From NCBI GenBank assembly GCA_025055975.1, contig JANWWM010000060.1, positions 1-64,000 on the forward strand: a stretch of 64,000 nt of DNA. Reading direction: 5' to 3'. The position numbers were made by a program, and so were the translations under genes. The DNA comes from Chloroherpetonaceae bacterium (GTDB lineage: Bacteria > Bacteroidota > Chlorobiia > Chlorobiales > Thermochlorobacteraceae). The notes under the pieces were generated by a model, which was not told the DNA's origin, searched no databases, and saw only the letters and a program-made list of their open reading frames with translations. Below, in pieces: positions 47,983 to 57,324 of the stretch. The stretch's first letter is position 1; each line of letters opens with the position of its first letter.

Positions 47983-48768
47983 CTAAACGCGAGGACGGTT
48001 GCGGAAGCGCAACTCCATCTCGCGCACTTTGAGCTGGAGCTCTTCCATCGGGAGTTGCAGGTAGTAATTGACAAGGTCGCGTATCATCAGAAGGCGCGAG
48101 GAACTATCGGCGATGAGACCTTGCTGGCGCTTTTGCTCGAGAATTTGGTAGAGGTTCGGGTTTTGGAGTTCTTCGAGCGTTAGCACGTAGAGTTCGTTGC
48201 CTTTTTGCGCGCTGTCGCGCAAAGCCATTCGTTCAGGCGGGGTCGGAGCGGGCGGCGCGCTTGGCGCGGAAGCGGATGACGACGCGGCGGCAGCGGCGGC
48301 GTGAGCGGCGGCTTCGGCTTCGCTTTTGGCTTTGATCATTCGGTTCGTCGTCTCGCGCAGACGCTGCGACAGGATTTTGATGAAGTTGAGCAGGATTTTG
48401 ATCGCTTCTGTCGGACGGCTTTGCAACATTCGGTCGAAGTTGTACTTCGGCATCACCAACAGTTCGGAATACTCCTTGACGATGGCGGACGCGGAGCGTT
48501 TTTGCTGTTCGAACAGAGACATTTCCCCAAGCAACGCGCCCGGACCAAGCGTCATAAAGACCTCGTCTTCTCCCGCGGCGTTCTTCTTCGAAAGCTCAAC
48601 CTTCCCCGACAGAATCACATACATAATTTGACCCACGATCAGATTCTCGCGGAACAACACGTAGTTTGGCTCGAAACCTTTCACGAAGGCATACTTGATG
48701 ATATGCTCGAATTCTTCTGGCGAAATGCCTTCGAAAATCGGAATCGTTGACGGGTCGATCTTATGCAT
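47983..48768 (-). CDS. Cyclic nucleotide-binding domain protein
   Basis: A 261-residue protein. Residues ~10-130 form a cNMP-binding fold: FEGISPEEFEHIIKYA, GQIMYVILSGKVEL, and the phosphate-binding cassette GALLGEMSLFEQQKRSASAI. A helix and an Ala/Ser/Pro linker (~155-178) lead to a helical C-terminal part (~185-255). No DNA-binding HTH is evident, so it is not a CRP-type regulator. In the cassette the usual Arg after the GE motif is in QKRSA, consistent with ligand binding. It is probably a cytoplasmic signalling adaptor. Confidence 0.82.
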   Translation of the reverse strand: MHKIDPSTIPIFEGISPEEFEHIIKYAFVKGFEPNYVLFRENLIVGQIMYVILSGKVELSKKNAAGEDEVFMTLGPGALLGEMSLFEQQKRSASAIVKEYSELLVMPKYNFDRMLQSRPTEAIKILLNFIKILSQRLRETTNRMIKAKSEAEAAAHAAAAAASSSASAPSAPPAPTPPERMALRDSAQKGNELYVLTLEELQNPNLYQILEQKRQQGLIADSSSRLLMIRDLVNYYLQLPMEELQLKVREMELRFRNRPRV

Positions 48769-49848: not shown

Positions 49849-51102
49849 TTACTCTCGATTCGCGGAGAGTTTCTCGGAAAGAAAGGCGGCGCGCCTTGCG
49901 GGATAAAGGCTCGCCAGCAGGGTTAGCAAAAAAGCGACGACCGCCGTCCAAACGAAGTCCCACGCTTCGATTGCGACGGGATAAGCCTTCACGATGAAGG
50001 CGTTTCCGTAAGGCAACTTCACAAGCCCGTATTCGCTTTGCAGAAAGGCGACGAGAAAGCCAAGCGCAACGCCGATTCCGACCCCGATTGCGCCGATGAG
50101 CGCGCCCTCGATGAGAAAGATGCGCTCGATGTCTTTCGCGGTCAACCCGATGCAGCGCAAGAAGTAAAGGTCGCGTCGTTTCTCGATAGCCGTCATCGTG
50201 AGCGAACCGATGAGCGAAAACGACGCGACGACGATGATGAGCAGGAGCGCGGCGAAACTTCCCCACTTTTCCATTTTCATCACGCGAAAAAGGTCGCTGA
50301 ATTTGTCCTCGATCGTCAGAATTTGAAGCGCGTTTTCGTAGCCGTTCTCTTTCGCCCACTTCTCGATTGCCGCCCGCAAAGCCTCGTTGGATAAAGGTTT
50401 TCCGAAGACGTCTTTTTTGGGGCGAATGTCGATGCCCGTAACTTCGTTTTCTTCGTAGCCGAAGATGCGCCTGCCCGCGCCGAGCGAAGCGAGCGCGTAG
50501 GTTTCGTCAAACGCTCGATGCGTGCGAAAGAAGTTTGCGATTTTCATCGCGGGTAGTTCGGGCGGTTTTTTGGAAAGGGGGTTTTGAATCGCCTCCAATC
50601 CTTCATCGATCGCCTTCGCGCTGATGACGACGACCTCGTGCTGATGCATTGCGCCGAGTCGATTCGCAACGCCGCCTCCGATGGCGAGATCGCGCTCGCC
50701 AAGTCCGCGCCGTATGTCCATATAACCCGTTAGTTGTTTGACGGCGGTCGGCTCTATCGCTTTCAGGATTACGACGCTGCTCTTCTCTTTTGCCGCCATC
50801 AGAACCTTTCCCTCGATGAAGCGTTCCGCCGAGGCGACTTCGGGCAACGCGCGAAGCGATTTCAGCGTTTCGTCGCTCGCTCGAATCGTTTGTCCTTCCC
50901 TCGCCACAAGTTGAACGTTGCCGTCTATCGTCAAAAACAAATTGCTCACGACGCTGCGAAAGCCGTTCAACACGGAAAGCACGACGCAGATGACCGCAAC
51001 GCCGATTACGATGCCTGCGATGCTGATTGCCGTGATAATGTTGATCGCTTTTGTTTCTTTTTTGGCGAAAATAAATCTTTTTGCAATAACGGAATTTTTC
51101 AT
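49849..51102 (-). CDS. LolC/E-family (MacB-type fold) ABC permease, copy 2
   Basis: A 417-residue permease with four transmembrane helices. An N-terminal helix (INIITAISIAGIVIGVAVICVVLSVLNGF) is followed by a large extracytoplasmic domain and the FtsX-like helices (GSLTMTAIEKRRDLYFLRCIG). This is the LolC/LolE lipoprotein-releasing layout. The start codon lies within ATGAAAAATTCC, and codons 3-7 come from copy 5 of the 15-mer repeat. It overlaps the upstream paralogue by 4 bases. No LolD ATPase is adjacent. Confidence 0.87.
   Translation of the reverse strand: MKNSVIAKRFIFAKKETKAINIITAISIAGIVIGVAVICVVLSVLNGFRSVVSNLFLTIDGNVQLVAREGQTIRASDETLKSLRALPEVASAERFIEGKVLMAAKEKSSVVILKAIEPTAVKQLTGYMDIRRGLGERDLAIGGGVANRLGAMHQHEVVVISAKAIDEGLEAIQNPLSKKPPELPAMKIANFFRTHRAFDETYALASLGAGRRIFGYEENEVTGIDIRPKKDVFGKPLSNEALRAAIEKWAKENGYENALQILTIEDKFSDLFRVMKMEKWGSFAALLLIIVVASFSLIGSLTMTAIEKRRDLYFLRCIGLTAKDIERIFLIEGALIGAIGVGIGVALGFLVAFLQSEYGLVKLPYGNAFIVKAYPVAIEAWDFVWTAVVAFLLTLLASLYPARRAAFLSEKLSANRE
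51080..51094 (-). repeat. Dispersed 15-mer repeat, copy 5
   Basis: TTCCGTTATTGCAAA on the minus strand, at codons 3-7 of the permease gene at 49849-51102 (encoding N-S-V-I-A). One base differs from the consensus at the last position. Confidence 0.85.
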
Positions 51103-52367
51103 TTTCGCAACGCTTTAACGGGATGAAGCCGCGCCGCCACGCCCGACGGCGCTAACGACGCCAGCCAACATGTCAGCGTCGCAAAACCCGACACGACCAC
51201 GTAGTTCGCGGGCTTTATCGCAATCGCCACGTTGCTGATGAAGTAAGTCTCCTCCGAGAGCGAAACGAGGCGAAGCGATTTCTCCGCTACCGACAACCCA
51301 AACGCAAGCGCGTTTCCGATCGCGATTCCCGCCAACGCCATCAACAGCGCTTGCGACACGAAAATCGTTTTCACTTGCTTGGCGCTCGCGCCGAAAGACA
51401 TTATCACGCCGATTTCCCTTTCCTTCTCCAAAACGATGATGAGCAAGGTTGAAATCACGTTGAACGCCGCCACGATCGTTACGCTCACGAGCAATAGCGG
51501 AATGATGTTCTCTTGAAAACGAAGCCAAACGAAAATGCTTTGATAGAGTTGATAAATGGTTCTCGCATAGATTGGAAACCCGATGTCGCGGTCCAATTCC
51601 GCCGCCGTTTGTCCAACCCGTTCAATGTCTTTGACCGCGATTTCGTAGCCGCTAATCATTTCGGGCATTGATAGGAAGTTTTGAGCCGCTTTCAGCGTCG
51701 TGAACGCGATGGCGTCGTCGAAGCCTTGCGAAAGCCCCGTTTCGTAGACGCCTACGAGGGTTGCCGTCTCAATGCGCATCGCTTTGAGCGCGTCTTTGAC
51801 GTTTCGTTCCGCGTTAAATCCTTCTGCGGCAAAGTCTTTCGTCGTGGCGATGACCAAAAGCTTATCGCCCGTTTTGAGCGCGAGTTTTTGGGCGAGTTTC
51901 TTGCCCAAAATCAGCGGGAGCGCCGCATTGACGGAATCTCCGAAATACGTCCCCGACGTGATTTTGCGCCTGATGAAAGAATTGTCCGTTTGCGGCTCGA
52001 TGGCTTTAAGCAAGGCGGGTTCAATGCGCGACGCGCCGTTTGCCGTTTTGAGAATCACATCCTTTTGCAGAAACGGGGATGCGGAGGCGACATTGGGGTT
52101 TTGAGTTGTTTTTATTGCAATAACAGAATCTTGCTTTATGAACTCGCCTCCGACCTTAATCAAGTGAATGTGCGCGCCAAACCCGATAATTTTGTTTTTG
52201 ATTTCCTCGCTGAATCCTTGAACGATGGAGAGCGTCAGAATCAACGCCGCCGTTCCGAGCGCGATGCCGCCCGTTGCGACAACGCTGATGAAGGTCGGCT
52301 TGTTCTCTTTTTCCCGATTCGGAAACAGGAAACGCCTTGCGATCGCGATTTCAAATCTCAAGTCCAA
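51099..52367 (-). CDS. LolC/E-family (MacB-type fold) ABC permease, copy 1
   Basis: A 422-residue paralogue of the next gene. The N-terminal helix region is FEIAIARRFLFPNREKENKPTF in two parts, then TGGIALGTAALILTLSIVQGF. FtsX-like helices follow near the C terminus (VISTLLIIVLEKEREIGVIMSFGAS). Paired LolC/LolE-like permeases extract lipoproteins from the inner membrane for transfer to the outer membrane. The ATPase must be encoded elsewhere. Codons ~80-84 (D-S-V-I-A-I) come from copy 6 of the 15-mer repeat. Confidence 0.87.
   Translation of the reverse strand: MDLRFEIAIARRFLFPNREKENKPTFISVVATGGIALGTAALILTLSIVQGFSEEIKNKIIGFGAHIHLIKVGGEFIKQDSVIAIKTTQNPNVASASPFLQKDVILKTANGASRIEPALLKAIEPQTDNSFIRRKITSGTYFGDSVNAALPLILGKKLAQKLALKTGDKLLVIATTKDFAAEGFNAERNVKDALKAMRIETATLVGVYETGLSQGFDDAIAFTTLKAAQNFLSMPEMISGYEIAVKDIERVGQTAAELDRDIGFPIYARTIYQLYQSIFVWLRFQENIIPLLLVSVTIVAAFNVISTLLIIVLEKEREIGVIMSFGASAKQVKTIFVSQALLMALAGIAIGNALAFGLSVAEKSLRLVSLSEETYFISNVAIAIKPANYVVVSGFATLTCWLASLAPSGVAARLHPVKALRK
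52114..52128 (-). repeat. Dispersed 15-mer repeat, copy 6
   Basis: TTCTGTTATTGCAAT on the minus strand, inside the permease gene 51099-52367, encoding S-V-I-A in the same reading phase as copies 5 and 7. A perfect match. Confidence 0.85.
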
Positions 52368-52382
52368 ATCGTTTGATTAAAT

Positions 52383-53390
52383 TCAGTCCTGCTTTGCGTC
52401 AAGAGTCAGCTCGTTGGGGCTTTCCCTTCCTTCCGCCCAAGCGTTGATGGTTTCAAAGGTGGTTTCCGCGATGTTGCGCAAGGCGGTGTCGGTCAAAAAG
52501 GCTTGGTGGCTGGTGATGAGCACGTTTGGAAAAACCATCAATTGCGCCAAAATTTCGTCTTGGAGCACTTGATTGGAGCGGTCGTAGAAAAACAGTCCTT
52601 TTTCTTCCTCATAGACATCGATGCCGAAGTAACCGATTTTGCCCGATTTCAATCCCGCCAAGACCGCGCTGGTTTTGACCAATCCGCCGCGACTCGTGTT
52701 GATGAGCATCACGCCGTTTTTCATCAACTTGATCGTTTCCTCGTTGATGAGATACTTCGTGCTTGGAAGCAAGGGCGCATGAAGCGTGATGATGTCGCTT
52801 TCTTTGTAGAGCGTTGGCAAATCGACATACTTTAAGCCATATCGCTCCGCGAGGGTCATATTGGGCAAGATGTCGTAGCCAAGCAAATGGCAACCGAATC
52901 CGTGCAAAATTTTTGCGACCACCGAGCCAATTTTTCCCGTGCCGATGATGCCTGCGGTTTTGCCGTTCATATCGAAGCCCACCAATCCCGTGAGCGAAAA
53001 ATTCGACTCGCGGATGCGGTTGTGCGCTTTGGCGAGTTTGCGATTGAGCGCGAGCATCAAGGCGACGGTATGCTCCGCGACGGCGTAGGGCGAATACGCG
53101 GGCACGTTGGCGACGCGAATCCCCAGCTCTTTGGCTTTGACCAAGTCGATGTGATTGAACCCCGCGGAGCGCAGCGCGATGTATCGAATGCCAAACGAAT
53201 GCAGTTTTTCCAAAATCGGCGCGGAGCCGTCGTCGTTGACGAACAGCAGCAGCGCGTCCGCGCCTTTGGCGAGTTCGACCGTCTCGGTCGTCAGTTGGAG
53301 TTTGAGAAATTGAATTTGATGTTTTCCCTGCGCCGCTTTGAGCAGAAATTCCTTCTCGAAGGTATGCGCGTCAAAACAAGTGATGTTCAT
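52383..53390 (-). CDS. ldhA: Fermentative D-lactate dehydrogenase
   Basis: A 335-residue D-2-hydroxyacid dehydrogenase closely resembling E. coli LdhA. Shared stretches include LFVNDDGSAP, YIALRSAGFNHIDL, VPAYSPYAVAEHTVALML, GIIGTGKIGSVVAKI (NAD-binding), VMLINTSRGGLV, GIDVYEEEKGLFFYD and SHQAFLTDTAL, with the catalytic His in the last. It reduces pyruvate to D-lactate with NADH, so the cell can ferment when respiration is limited. It lies between the permease pair and the cyclase operon. Confidence 0.93.
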   Translation of the reverse strand: MNITCFDAHTFEKEFLLKAAQGKHQIQFLKLQLTTETVELAKGADALLLFVNDDGSAPILEKLHSFGIRYIALRSAGFNHIDLVKAKELGIRVANVPAYSPYAVAEHTVALMLALNRKLAKAHNRIRESNFSLTGLVGFDMNGKTAGIIGTGKIGSVVAKILHGFGCHLLGYDILPNMTLAERYGLKYVDLPTLYKESDIITLHAPLLPSTKYLINEETIKLMKNGVMLINTSRGGLVKTSAVLAGLKSGKIGYFGIDVYEEEKGLFFYDRSNQVLQDEILAQLMVFPNVLITSHQAFLTDTALRNIAETTFETINAWAEGRESPNELTLDAKQD

Positions 53391-53414: not shown

Positions 53415-54731
53415 TCAAATCAGCGATGGCGCGGTCTCCACGCGATTTCTGCCTTTTTCTTTGGCTTTGTAGAGCGCTTTGTCCGCGGCATTGATGAGCG
53501 TTTCCGCGTCGGTGCAATCTTCGGGATACGACGCCACGCCCAGACTTGCCGTGAAGTTTCCGCCCGGCTGTTTTTCTTGATTGACGAAGACGGCGTCTTC
53601 AATGGCTTTGCGGATTCTTTCGGCGAGCACGACGGCTTCTTCTTTGGTAGTTCTTGGGAGCAGGATGGCGAATTCCTCTCCGCCGAATCGGGCGGGTTTG
53701 TCGGTCTCGCGGCAGAGGCTTTTCATCAATTTCGCCATTTTGATTAAGGCTTCGTCGCCCAAGATGTGCCCATTCGTGTCGTTGTAGTGCTTGAACTTGT
53801 CCGCGTCGATCATAATGAGCGAGACGGCTTCGCCGAAGCGTTTGGCACGCGCGATTTCCGCTTGCAATTCGGATTTGAAATGTCGGAAATTAAAGAGTTT
53901 CGTTTTCTCGTCCGTAATGACCAAGTTTTCCAATTCGCGGGTTTTGTCCTCGATTTGCTGACCGAAGTTGCGCAAGGCGCGCGCAAGGCGCGAGATTTCG
54001 TCGTTGCTCTTGCGCTTTTCAATGAATTCCTCCGAACCTTTTACGACGGCGCTCATATCCTTAAAATCGTTCTCGCTCACGCTTTTGATGATTTTGGTGA
54101 GCTTTTCAATTGGCGAGGCGGTCGTAACATAGATGACGATGCCCAACGCGATGAGAATCGGCAAGAAAATCGCCGCCAAAATCGCCCCCATTTCCTTCAA
54201 GTAATTCACTTGTTCGCGCACGCTGACGGAGGCTTCGCGCAATTTGTTTTGTTTTAATTCGTTCAAGCGGTTTGTTTCGTTGAAGACTTTGACCAAAATT
54301 TCGTTGTATTCTTTGGTGAGTTTAGACGATTTCTCCTCAATCGTGCCTCTGGATTGAGCGATGACCTCGGCTTTTCGGAAGTATTCTTCCTGCATCGTTT
54401 GGATGCGCTGCACCGCGCTGGTGAGCTCAATGTTTCCCTCGGCGACTTGCAACAGTTCGGCGATGTTGCGTTCCAACGCGCGTTTGGCTTCTTGCGCGTC
54501 TTTGAGCCAATTCGGATTGCCCGACGCGACGAACTTCCACAGGTTGCTATCGTAGCGAATGAGGCTTTTGTTCATCTCGCTGGTATTGACATACTCATTG
54601 ACGCGCTCGCCCACATACACCTTGAAGTCTTTGTCAAACGAGTTCATCTCGTAGAGAGAAAAGGCGGGAAAAACCGCCGAAATGCCAATCGCAACGAGAA
54701 GAAGCAAGATGATTTTGTTTCTGAAGCTCAT
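53415..54731 (-). CDS. Membrane diguanylate cyclase with HAMP and GGDEF domains
   Basis: A 438-residue sensor cyclase that makes c-di-GMP from GTP. Transmembrane helix 1 is at about 7-28. A periplasmic helical domain (~30-180) follows, then helix 2 (~183-205) and a HAMP-like linker (ASPIEKLTKIIKSVSENDF). The GGDEF domain ends the protein, with the active site GGEEF at 350-354. An inhibitory site RETD lies five residues before it. Both are intact, so activity and product inhibition are expected. It is the third gene after two PstS-like lipoprotein genes, 14 bases apart. The ATG at 54731 was chosen for the first helix. Confidence 0.92.
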   Translation of the reverse strand: MSFRNKIILLLLVAIGISAVFPAFSLYEMNSFDKDFKVYVGERVNEYVNTSEMNKSLIRYDSNLWKFVASGNPNWLKDAQEAKRALERNIAELLQVAEGNIELTSAVQRIQTMQEEYFRKAEVIAQSRGTIEEKSSKLTKEYNEILVKVFNETNRLNELKQNKLREASVSVREQVNYLKEMGAILAAIFLPILIALGIVIYVTTASPIEKLTKIIKSVSENDFKDMSAVVKGSEEFIEKRKSNDEISRLARALRNFGQQIEDKTRELENLVITDEKTKLFNFRHFKSELQAEIARAKRFGEAVSLIMIDADKFKHYNDTNGHILGDEALIKMAKLMKSLCRETDKPARFGGEEFAILLPRTTKEEAVVLAERIRKAIEDAVFVNQEKQPGGNFTASLGVASYPEDCTDAETLINAADKALYKAKEKGRNRVETAPSLI

Positions 54732-54745
54732 AGCGACGCGCAAGA

Positions 54746-55651
54746 TTAATCTGCCTTGAAGTTGATGACCCACATAGGCGGCTCGAATGGCGCCGCGCCA
54801 TTTCGCTGAAAAACCTTCTGCCCTTCTTTCGAGAGAAACGCCGCAAAGCCCAGAGGCAATTTGTCGGTTTTCAGGTAAAGGTAATAGACCGTATTGACGA
54901 GCGGATAACGATGCTTGTAGACGTGCTCCTGCATTGGCAGGTAGTAAGTGGAGTCGCCTTCGGGAGCGATCGCCAAGACTTTGTAGGCGGACGAGTCGCG
55001 CTCGTTGGGGTCGAGGAATTTTCTGACGTGCGCCATGCCCGCGTAGCCTAACGCGCCTTCGTATTTCAGGACGAGTTCTTTCATTTGCGCGGCGGTGGAG
55101 CACGGGTACGCGCCGCTTGGAAAATCGTCGGCGCGGAGCAAGGAATCCTTCAGAAAGTCGCGCTGACCGTCGTTGCGGCTCATCAAGAAGAGTTGAATCG
55201 GCTGTTTTTTTCCGCCCACCCGCTCCCAATTGGCGATTTTGCCCGTCAAGATGTCGCGCAGTTGTTCCAGTTTAAGCTTTCCGACGGGATTTTTGGGATT
55301 GACGATGAAGCAGACCGCGTCGTAAGCGATGGGTTTTTGGGCATAGCTTACTTCGGCTTCGCGGAGCGCTTGTTCTTCGTCGGGTTTAAGCGTTCGGGAA
55401 AGGACGATGAAGCGCGTTTCTTTGTTTGCGAAGCGTTCAACGGCGCGGCGCGTCAGTTCGGCTTCGCTTGTAAATTCCGCGCTCTTCCAGATGCGCATAA
55501 ACTCTTTGATTTGAATGTTTAAGAGCGGCGCGACGCTTTCATCGCAAACGATGTTCATCTTGCCCGACGTGGTGGTTTCTTCTTGCGAGGAGCAATTTAT
55601 TGCAATAACGGACATCAAAACGCCCAACGCGCCAACGACGCTCTTTTGCAT
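54746..55651 (-). CDS. PstS-like substrate-binding lipoprotein, second copy
   Basis: A 301-residue lipoprotein of the PstS-like solute-binding family. The signal ends in SVIAIN-Cys20; these codons belong to copy 7 of the 15-mer repeat, so the repeat supplies the lipobox. Conserved segments are AVCFIVNPKNPVGKLKLEQLRDIL in two parts, TGKIANWERVGG, and RNDGQRDFLKDSLL. The classic PstS phosphate-binding loops are only loosely kept, so the ligand is uncertain. It starts 3 bases after its paralogue and leads into the diguanylate cyclase gene. No pstC, pstA or pstB is present. Confidence 0.85.
   Translation of the reverse strand: MQKSVVGALGVLMSVIAINCSSQEETTTSGKMNIVCDESVAPLLNIQIKEFMRIWKSAEFTSEAELTRRAVERFANKETRFIVLSRTLKPDEEQALREAEVSYAQKPIAYDAVCFIVNPKNPVGKLKLEQLRDILTGKIANWERVGGKKQPIQLFLMSRNDGQRDFLKDSLLRADDFPSGAYPCSTAAQMKELVLKYEGALGYAGMAHVRKFLDPNERDSSAYKVLAIAPEGDSTYYLPMQEHVYKHRYPLVNTVYYLYLKTDKLPLGFAAFLSKEGQKVFQRNGAAPFEPPMWVINFKAD
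55599..55613 (-). repeat. Dispersed 15-mer repeat, copy 7
   Basis: GTCCGTTATTGCAAT on the minus strand (first base differs from the consensus). It encodes S-V-I-A of the PstS-like lipoprotein, immediately before its lipid-anchored cysteine. Confidence 0.85.
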
Positions 55652-55654
55652 TGT

Positions 55655-56755
55655 CTATTGCGATTGCGTGAACTGAATTTGCACTCGCGTTGGCACCAGC
55701 CCCATCGCCATCAAAATCGCCTGCCCGTCGGTGTCTTTTTGGCTTGAATGCATAAACGCCGACACGATGAGCGGAAAGCCGCCCAGATTCGTTCGGAAGA
55801 ACGAGTAGATGTCCACGATGAGCGGATACTTGGACTGCGCCACGTAGGCTTGATGCGGGAGCACGGCGGTTGCGCCCTGCTCGTTGGCGCGAATCCGCAA
55901 CACCTTGAACTTCGTCGTGTCGGGCGATTTGTCGTTCAAAAACGGTTTGGCGCTTGCCATTCCGACGATGCCGACGGCGGACGAATCCTTCAAAATCGCT
56001 TCCAACGTGGCGTTTTCGGTTACCATCGTTTCGGCTTTGGCGAGTTTGATGCCGAGCGTGTCTTCGAGGTAGTCGCGCCGACCGTCTTGCTCGTGCGGGA
56101 GCAGCAGGCGAATGTTCATCGGTTTGCCGCCGACCAAAGCCCAATTGGTAACTTTCCCCGAAAAAATTTCGCCCACTTGCGACAGGCGCAATTCTTCAAT
56201 GGGGTTTTTGGGATTGACGACGACGCAAATCGCGTCGCGCCCGAATCGGCTAACCTGCGCGGATTTTTTCTGCGCCATCGTCCATTCATCGGGCTTCAAG
56301 CCGCCGATGATGAGCGCGAATCGCGCTTCGTCGTTGAGCACGGCGGCGACGGCGTTGCGCGTTTTTTCGGGATAGATGTCAATCGTCGCCTCGGTTTTGC
56401 CGCTCAAAAAGTTTTGTTTCATCTGCTTGGCGACTTGATAAACGGCGGGGTCGGCGAGCATTCGCAAGTGCCCTCGATTGACATTTTCTTCCTTGTTCGT
56501 CCATTCGTAGAGGCGGTCGACCGCTTTGCGATACTCAAAATCGCCCGACATGGAAACGAGGGCGTTATACTCTTCCATCGTCAGTTCGCCTTTGACGATG
56601 AGAGCTTTTTGCGTCGCGTCGTAGCGCACTTTGTCGAGCTTGCCCACAAAGGATACGCCGTCGGGCAATCGTTCCAACTTCACGGACGTTTCGGGTCTGC
56701 ACCCCGTCAGGAGCGCGGCGCAACCGAGCGCGAGCGCTACGATTTGGTTCTTCAT
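55655..56755 (-). CDS. PstS-like substrate-binding lipoprotein, first copy
   Basis: A 366-residue lipoprotein (signal ending LLTGC, Cys19) and clear paralogue of the next gene. Shared segments are CVVVNPKNPIEELRLSQVGEI, SGKVTNWALVGGKP and DGRRDYLEDTLGI. It has about 60 extra N-terminal residues after the Cys. It is the first gene of the PstS-PstS-cyclase unit. It begins 20 bases after the ferritin-like gene, so it may share that transcript. Confidence 0.85.
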   Translation of the reverse strand: MKNQIVALALGCAALLTGCRPETSVKLERLPDGVSFVGKLDKVRYDATQKALIVKGELTMEEYNALVSMSGDFEYRKAVDRLYEWTNKEENVNRGHLRMLADPAVYQVAKQMKQNFLSGKTEATIDIYPEKTRNAVAAVLNDEARFALIIGGLKPDEWTMAQKKSAQVSRFGRDAICVVVNPKNPIEELRLSQVGEIFSGKVTNWALVGGKPMNIRLLLPHEQDGRRDYLEDTLGIKLAKAETMVTENATLEAILKDSSAVGIVGMASAKPFLNDKSPDTTKFKVLRIRANEQGATAVLPHQAYVAQSKYPLIVDIYSFFRTNLGGFPLIVSAFMHSSQKDTDGQAILMAMGLVPTRVQIQFTQSQ

Positions 56756-56775: not shown

Positions 56776-57246
56776 TCAGTTCTTGAACGCGGCGATGTCG
56801 CCGGGCTTGCGAAGCATTTTGTTGACCTCCATAATGTGCAGTTCCTCGTCGTGAATCATCTGACGAGCGTATTCTTCCAAGACGACGGACTTGTCTTTGA
56901 CGAGTTCCAAAAGTTCGCGGTAGGCGTTCAAGCCTTCTTCTTCGTGTTCGAGGGATTCGAGGAGAATCGCGCCGATGTCGTGGTTATGCGTCTCGAGCAG
57001 ATGTCCGATGGCGAGCGAGGGGTGCTCGCCCAGTCCCGTGATGAGTTCGCCCGCTTGTTGCGCGTGAGCAAGCGATTCTTGCGCTTGCTTGCGAAGCCAC
57101 TCGACGATGGGGATGCGGTTGTAGCCGTAAATCATAAACGAATAGTGCGTGTAGCGCACCACGCCCGCAAGTTCGGTTTCAAGGATTTTGTTGAGAAGCT
57201 TGACGGCGGCGGCGATTTCCTCTTTGGTCAGCGTTGTCGCAATCAT
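56776..57246 (-). CDS. Bacterioferritin-like protein
   Basis: A 156-residue four-helix ferritin-like protein. Di-iron ligands are visible as ETELAGVVRYTHY (Glu), ESLAHAQQAGE (Glu and His), ESLEHEEEGLNAYRELL and HDEELHIMEV. These suit a bacterioferritin or DUF892/rubrerythrin-like iron protein. It has an extra His-rich region (ETHNHDIGAILLESLEHEEE). It probably stores iron or detoxifies peroxide in the cytoplasm. The ATG at 57246 was preferred to a start at 57273 because the helix begins there. Confidence 0.8.
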   Translation of the reverse strand: MIATTLTKEEIAAAVKLLNKILETELAGVVRYTHYSFMIYGYNRIPIVEWLRKQAQESLAHAQQAGELITGLGEHPSLAIGHLLETHNHDIGAILLESLEHEEEGLNAYRELLELVKDKSVVLEEYARQMIHDEELHIMEVNKMLRKPGDIAAFKN

Positions 57247-57324
57247 TTTTTGATGACTTAAAGGTTGTCGCAAAAGTGGTCGTCAAATATACGACAACGC
57301 CCGCAATGGCGCGAGAATCAACGC

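Follow-up and report, generated by a model that had tools for sequence, protein, structure and literature searches.

A binding protein of the PstS fold, here called SBP2, is encoded beside a membrane-bound diguanylate cyclase, DGC, across the order Chlorobiales, and this conserved gene order, in which no transporter of the Pst type takes part, is not unique to the genome where it was first noticed. Our reading is built on what was observed directly, namely the gene order, the protein families, the conservation of sites, the loss of the phosphate motifs and the evolutionary context. On these grounds the chances appear to us about even that SBP2 acts as a sensor or regulator in the periplasm, tethered to the membrane and docking on the helical periplasmic domain of DGC, in the manner of NspS-MbaA, with an input that is probably not phosphate.

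The locus and its gene order in Chlorobiales

The locus lies on the minus strand of the stretch of 64,000 nucleotides that was analysed (hereafter the window), taken from a Chloroherpetonaceae bacterium with a Thermochlorobacteriaceae-like genome. SBP1 (55655..56755, read 56755-55655; 366 aa) is a PBP_like_2 lipoprotein with an LTGC lipobox; SBP2 (54746..55651, read 55651-54746; 301 aa) belongs to the same family and has a lipoprotein-like N-terminus, IAINC; DGC (53415..54731, read 54731-53415; 438 aa) consists of a first transmembrane segment, a helical periplasmic domain, a second transmembrane segment, a HAMP-like part and a GGDEF domain. With Pfam PBP_like_2 scores of 98 and 141 bits against a cut-off of 27, 34% identity over about 255 residues and a gap of 3 bases, SBP1 and SBP2 are indeed the two paralogous PstS-like proteins of the preliminary description, and DGC follows 14 bases further on. 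As for the three-gene operon that had been proposed, the order and the gaps hold, but the genes sit within a longer co-directional run, with a ferritin-like gene (56776..57249, minus; Pfam Ferritin 66 bits) directly upstream of SBP1, and with a D-2-hydroxyacid dehydrogenase gene (52383..53390, minus) and two LolC/E-type permease genes (51099..52367 and 49849..51102, both minus) downstream, the first permease scoring 217.7 bits with the lolCE model, below its cut-off of 362. The dehydrogenase gene occupies this position in the window, G001 and G002, and is absent in G003 and all other loci. No pst permease or ATPase gene occurs among the genes at 48-62 kb of the window, just as had been noted, and the source genome carries pstS and, after it, pstC at a distinct locus on another contig (L001). 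PADLOC gave 0 matches for anti-phage defence, and the scan for promoters and terminators gave a signal close to background.

For comparison, 61 genomes of Chlorobiales (including Thermochlorobacteriaceae MAGs) were used, which fall into four families: f1 to f3 are Thermochlorobacteriaceae- or Chloroherpetonaceae-like and f4 is Chlorobiaceae (n=49). SBP2 is present in all 61, and in 50 of them the SBP2 gene is followed directly by that of DGC on the same strand (7 of the 9 f1 genomes, the f3 genome and 42 of the 49 Chlorobiaceae); for G043, G044, G048, G053 and G054 of f4 and for G045, G059 and G060, this adjacency was taken from match coordinates on one contig, the locus itself not being read. 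In f2, DGC lies 4 kb (G012) or 18 kb (G009) from the SBP pair, and in G006 and G007 it is distant or on another contig. Two LolC/E-type permeases lie downstream of DGC in most loci, and SBP2-DGC-two LolC/E-type permeases is an ancestral gene order. SBP1 occurs in f1 to f3 and was not found in the Chlorobiaceae loci; the order SBP1-SBP2-DGC proposed for the window is hence shared by Chlorobiaceae only in its SBP2-DGC part, and the block conserved as far as Chlorobiaceae is SBP2-DGC-LolC-LolE. The surroundings of this block vary, with arg genes in Chlorobiaceae and the ferritin gene as a conserved neighbour in f1 only. Since the order SBP2-DGC recurs throughout Chlorobiales, it is not a matter of chance, and a conserved linkage between a binding protein and a c-di-GMP enzyme, as expected for systems of the NspS-MbaA kind, is thus present. 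Literature searches on GGDEF proteins, diguanylate cyclases and c-di-GMP in Chlorobi returned no paper on the SBP2-DGC locus.

Some further features of these loci deserve mention. A cyclic-nucleotide-binding-domain protein is encoded at 47983-48768 of the window and near the permeases in several f1 and f2 genomes, and in G004 (L040, 4421-5641) such a protein, there joined to a SpoIIE phosphatase domain, is encoded between the two permease genes; a second-messenger link of this neighbour is possible. In two f2 loci (L045, L048) the SBP pair lies directly downstream of apparent Mla-type lipid transport genes, and in G012 SBP1 is at the contig end. Ahead of the SBP fold, SBP1 has about 70 additional N-terminal residues (KVRYDA..., ...RLFEW..EE), which are conserved in the window, L037, L039, L040, L042, L045 and L048 and have no Pfam match.

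Most SBP2 copies have a lipoprotein-type cysteine, often with Asn just before it; this unusual lipobox xNC, with Asn right before the presumed lipidated Cys, is seen in the window, L037-L039, L066, L052 and others, and recurs in f1 and f4. In the Chlorobaculum-type genus g9 (L076, L077, L079, L088, L090, L049, L050, L087), SBP2 has no lipobox cysteine and begins with a hydrophobic segment without an obvious cleavage site, which looks like an uncleaved inner-membrane anchor. Such an anchor would be consistent with a partner in the inner membrane.

The cyclase, its losses and the relatives of SBP2

The GGDEF domain of DGC (Pfam PF00990, 156 bits; residues 272-430, 53442..53918, minus) has its best structural matches in WspR, PleD and other cyclases. 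Its active site G-G-E-E-F (residues 350-354, 53670..53684, minus) conforms to GG[DE]EF and its I-site R-E-T-D (residues 341-344, 53700..53711, minus) to RxxD in 46 of 46 orthologues, and N317 and D326, likewise invariant in the alignment, align with what we take to be the guanine-binding pair of canonical cyclases (PleD). To judge by its residues, DGC looks like a canonical diguanylate cyclase, and as no copy departs from the catalytic and I-site residues, it has been kept as an enzyme. Two hydrophobic segments enclose about 146 periplasmic residues, as would be needed in a c-di-GMP enzyme regulated by a binding protein; this domain (residues 31-176, 54204..54641, minus) is predicted to form antiparallel helices of a four-helix bundle, and by alignment it is about 40 residues shorter in Chlorobiaceae. 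It does not belong to 4HB_MCP_1 by score (19.5 bits against a cut-off of 27; one of 45 orthologues at E 0.01). The earlier account of DGC therefore stands as to the membrane segments, the predicted helical domain, GGEEF and the I-site, and its HAMP linker falls just below the cut-off (24.1 vs 25). In the structural model (mean pLDDT 86.6) the helices span residues 3-70, 73-96, 101-126 and 131-216, the long ones forming the periplasmic bundle ahead of the GGDEF domain; the packing of the domains is unsure because pTM is 0.43.

How SBP2 behaves without the cyclase bears on the docking reading. In six Chlorobiaceae genomes, G020, G021, G032, G046, G049 and G055 (loci L059, L060, L064, L068, L069 and L071), DGC is cleanly missing between SBP2 and the permease, which by the tree of the first permease amounts to at least two independent losses, and in G022 a frameshift breaks it. 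Of the six genomes without DGC, G032 is devoid of GGDEF proteins and the other five encode further ones. The dN/dS of SBP2 is 0.18-0.32 in the genomes without DGC and 0.20-0.30 in those with it, that is, normal purifying selection. Since SBP2 persists under constraint after the loss, it is not solely a cyclase input and has a cyclase-independent role too. Thus the idea of binding proteins and cyclase as a dedicated receptor pair keeps its support from linkage but not its exclusiveness, as SBP2 outlives the cyclase in these genomes and SBP1 was not found in the Chlorobiaceae loci. Mean distances are 1.81 for the periplasmic half of DGC, 1.22 for SBP2 and 0.42 for the catalytic half; faster change of the first two is a pattern often seen in sensory parts. 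A mirror-tree comparison between SBP2 and the periplasmic domain of DGC gave a partial r of 0.21, under the 0.35 and 0.55 of the control pairs; it shows no signal specific to the pair and does not tell docking from mere co-expression. The six losses and the separation of the SBP pair from DGC in G006, G007 and G009 count against docking, while the linkage amid changing surroundings, the lack of a linked transporter and the separate pst locus count for it.

The nearest relatives of SBP2 outside Chlorobiales were sought across the phylum, and 15 loci were examined. Thirteen of them (L097-L101, L103-L105, L107 and L109-L112) are clusters that combine TonB genes, ExbD genes or both with a TPR gene, and the PstS-like lipoprotein and the TPR protein are often accompanied by a membrane protein of only about 70 aa; of the other two, L102 encodes a true PstS next to genes for the Pst permease and L108 is of another kind. 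The cluster proteins share 25-35% identity with SBP2 and have a first cleft loop like its D-E-S, but none of the 15 loci has an adjoining GGDEF gene, in which they differ from the SBP2 locus. No function for such clusters was found in the literature searched. In G010, a TonB-type gene stands upstream of SBP1-SBP2-DGC-permeases, and so this genome bridges the two contexts. These relatives, the bridging genome and the SBP2 copies that stay beside the permease after DGC is lost all speak for the strongest alternative, that SBP2 has an envelope role of its own, either inherited from the ExbD/TonB-SBP-TPR context or linked with the LolC/E-type permeases, and that the cyclase is merely co-transcribed. 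We give this serious weight, though we hold it clearly less probable than docking: it leaves unexplained why the cyclase, the sole one in most Chlorobiaceae, has kept its place between SBP2 and the permeases in four families, and why SBP2 has shifted to an apparent inner-membrane anchor in the Chlorobaculum-type genomes.

The rebuilt cleft and the question of phosphate

It had been proposed that the SBP pair is a sensor of phosphate or some other anion, by which nutrient state is coupled to c-di-GMP. In its favour, SBP2 has the PBP_like_2/PstS fold by Pfam, by its AlphaFold2 model (mean pLDDT 93.7) and by PDB matches, the closest being the phosphate-bound 4gd5 (TM 0.91 on target), and phosphate-loaded PstS is able to drive the receptor CtpL (PMC4926252). 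The phosphate contacts were scored by the PstS motifs GSDT, GGGSGTG, SSR and SSGT, with the contact residues as listed for PhoX in PMC5439949. In SBP2 of the window, the first cleft loop reads D-E-S (residues 37-39, 55535..55543, minus) in place of G-S-D-T or G-S-T-S; GGGSGTG has no counterpart; S-R (residues 85-86, 55394..55399, minus) is the single motif partly retained, being S-G in Chlorobiaceae; and N-D-G-Q-R (residues 160-164, 55160..55174, minus) replaces the S-S-G-T loop. Most Chlorobiaceae copies show D-R/K-x-L, nothing, SG and DDYR (D-D-Y/F-R) at the four places, and in SBP1 the motifs are replaced or degraded as well. The real PstS of the genome keeps all four. Moreover with TIGR02136, the curated PstS model with a cut-off of 206.6 bits, SBP1 scores 66.8 and SBP2 106.6 against 236.5 for the real PstS. 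Membership in PstS therefore extends to the fold only, as the score, the phosphate motifs and linked pstC, pstA and pstB genes are all wanting. Phosphate sensing by SBP1 and SBP2 was rejected on the replaced motifs and on scores far under the cut-off, and the wider proposal of phosphate or another anion now appears improbable. Where PstS has hydroxyls the SBP2 cleft has acidic residues and is more acidic as a whole, which makes an anion less likely than a cationic ligand, a non-ionic one or no ligand at all.

Least probable of all is a supply role, in which SBP1 and SBP2 would bring another substrate to the Pst permease encoded elsewhere and their linkage to the cyclase would be incidental. 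Although the fold and the presence of a Pst permease in the genome would allow it, the pst locus has its own complete, bona fide PstS, neither protein is ever beside a Pst-type permease in the loci read, and binding proteins that feed a transporter do not usually keep an uncleaved anchor; as Pst transporter components the two were rejected for want of a linked transporter and for the separate PstS.

Returning to docking, SBP2 would be tethered to the membrane, dock on the helical periplasmic domain of DGC and set its c-di-GMP output through the second transmembrane segment and the HAMP-like linker, with SBP1 as a putative accessory paralogue in the families other than Chlorobiaceae. As the cleft is rebuilt, the input would probably not be phosphate; SBP2 may instead respond to a different small molecule, or to the state of the envelope or of a protein, a function that would come from an ExbBD-TonB-linked ancestor, and it may have a second role and report on that role to DGC. 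The contact of the two proteins, the direction of regulation, the ligand, the effector and the c-di-GMP output we infer from the genes.

Known systems and c-di-GMP in green sulfur bacteria

Control of c-di-GMP enzymes by such binding proteins is known in few cases, and a 2022 review (PMC8846402) names SBP_bac_3 as the only member of the PBP clan that had been examined in c-di-GMP networks; the present locus links a PstS-fold protein with a cyclase across a whole order. In NspS-MbaA of Vibrio cholerae a binding protein governs a c-di-GMP enzyme (PMC8967002, PMC8079147), and the likeness is that an ABC-type binding protein that takes no part in transport shares its locus with a membrane c-di-GMP enzyme, over which control is here proposed. 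However, NspS is a polyamine-type (PotD-like) protein and MbaA a GGDEF-EAL enzyme, whereas the present pair is PstS-like and GGDEF-only. In Salmonella, ArtI is required for the response of the membrane cyclase STM1987 (PMC8846402), again a periplasmic binding protein paired with a membrane cyclase, though here the pairing is one of gene order; ArtI is presumed to bind arginine in the periplasm, and STM1987 has a dCACHE_1 periplasmic domain, unlike the helical one of DGC. The PstS of Pseudomonas aeruginosa binds the helical receptor domain of CtpL 1:1 with a KD of 3.7 uM (PMC4926252), a precedent for the proposal made here that a PstS-fold protein serves as input to a receptor whose periplasmic domain is helical; but CtpL is a chemoreceptor and its PstS binds phosphate at nM affinity (PMC4926252), while SBP1 and SBP2 are without the phosphate motifs.

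A census by profile searches, which a divergent receptor or phosphodiesterase would escape, found exactly one GGDEF match in 37 of the 49 Chlorobiaceae genomes, two of which (G024, G056) have one HD-GYP match each; in the other 35, DGC is the sole GGDEF protein and there is no EAL, HD-GYP, PilZ or MshEN match. PilZ and MshEN gave 0 matches in all 61 genomes. YajQ (PF04461) was rejected as the missing receptor in Chlorobiaceae, being absent from 49 of 49 and present in f1 to f3, and the c-di-GMP-I riboswitch gave no match anywhere, a result without weight, since the control genomes were equally silent. Taken together, it is a tentative suggestion, which we rate below the docking itself, that c-di-GMP signalling in most green sulfur bacteria depends on a single cyclase with a single input, a repurposed PstS-fold protein that has ceased to bind phosphate, and lacks any recognised phosphodiesterase or receptor. 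If this is true, turnover and read-out of c-di-GMP would proceed through proteins so far unrecognised. Moreover, because the cyclase is the only GGDEF protein in 35 Chlorobiaceae genomes, a single deletion of dgc in a tractable green sulfur bacterium would, on the census, suffice to remove all c-di-GMP synthesis and make the role of the signal visible without redundancy.
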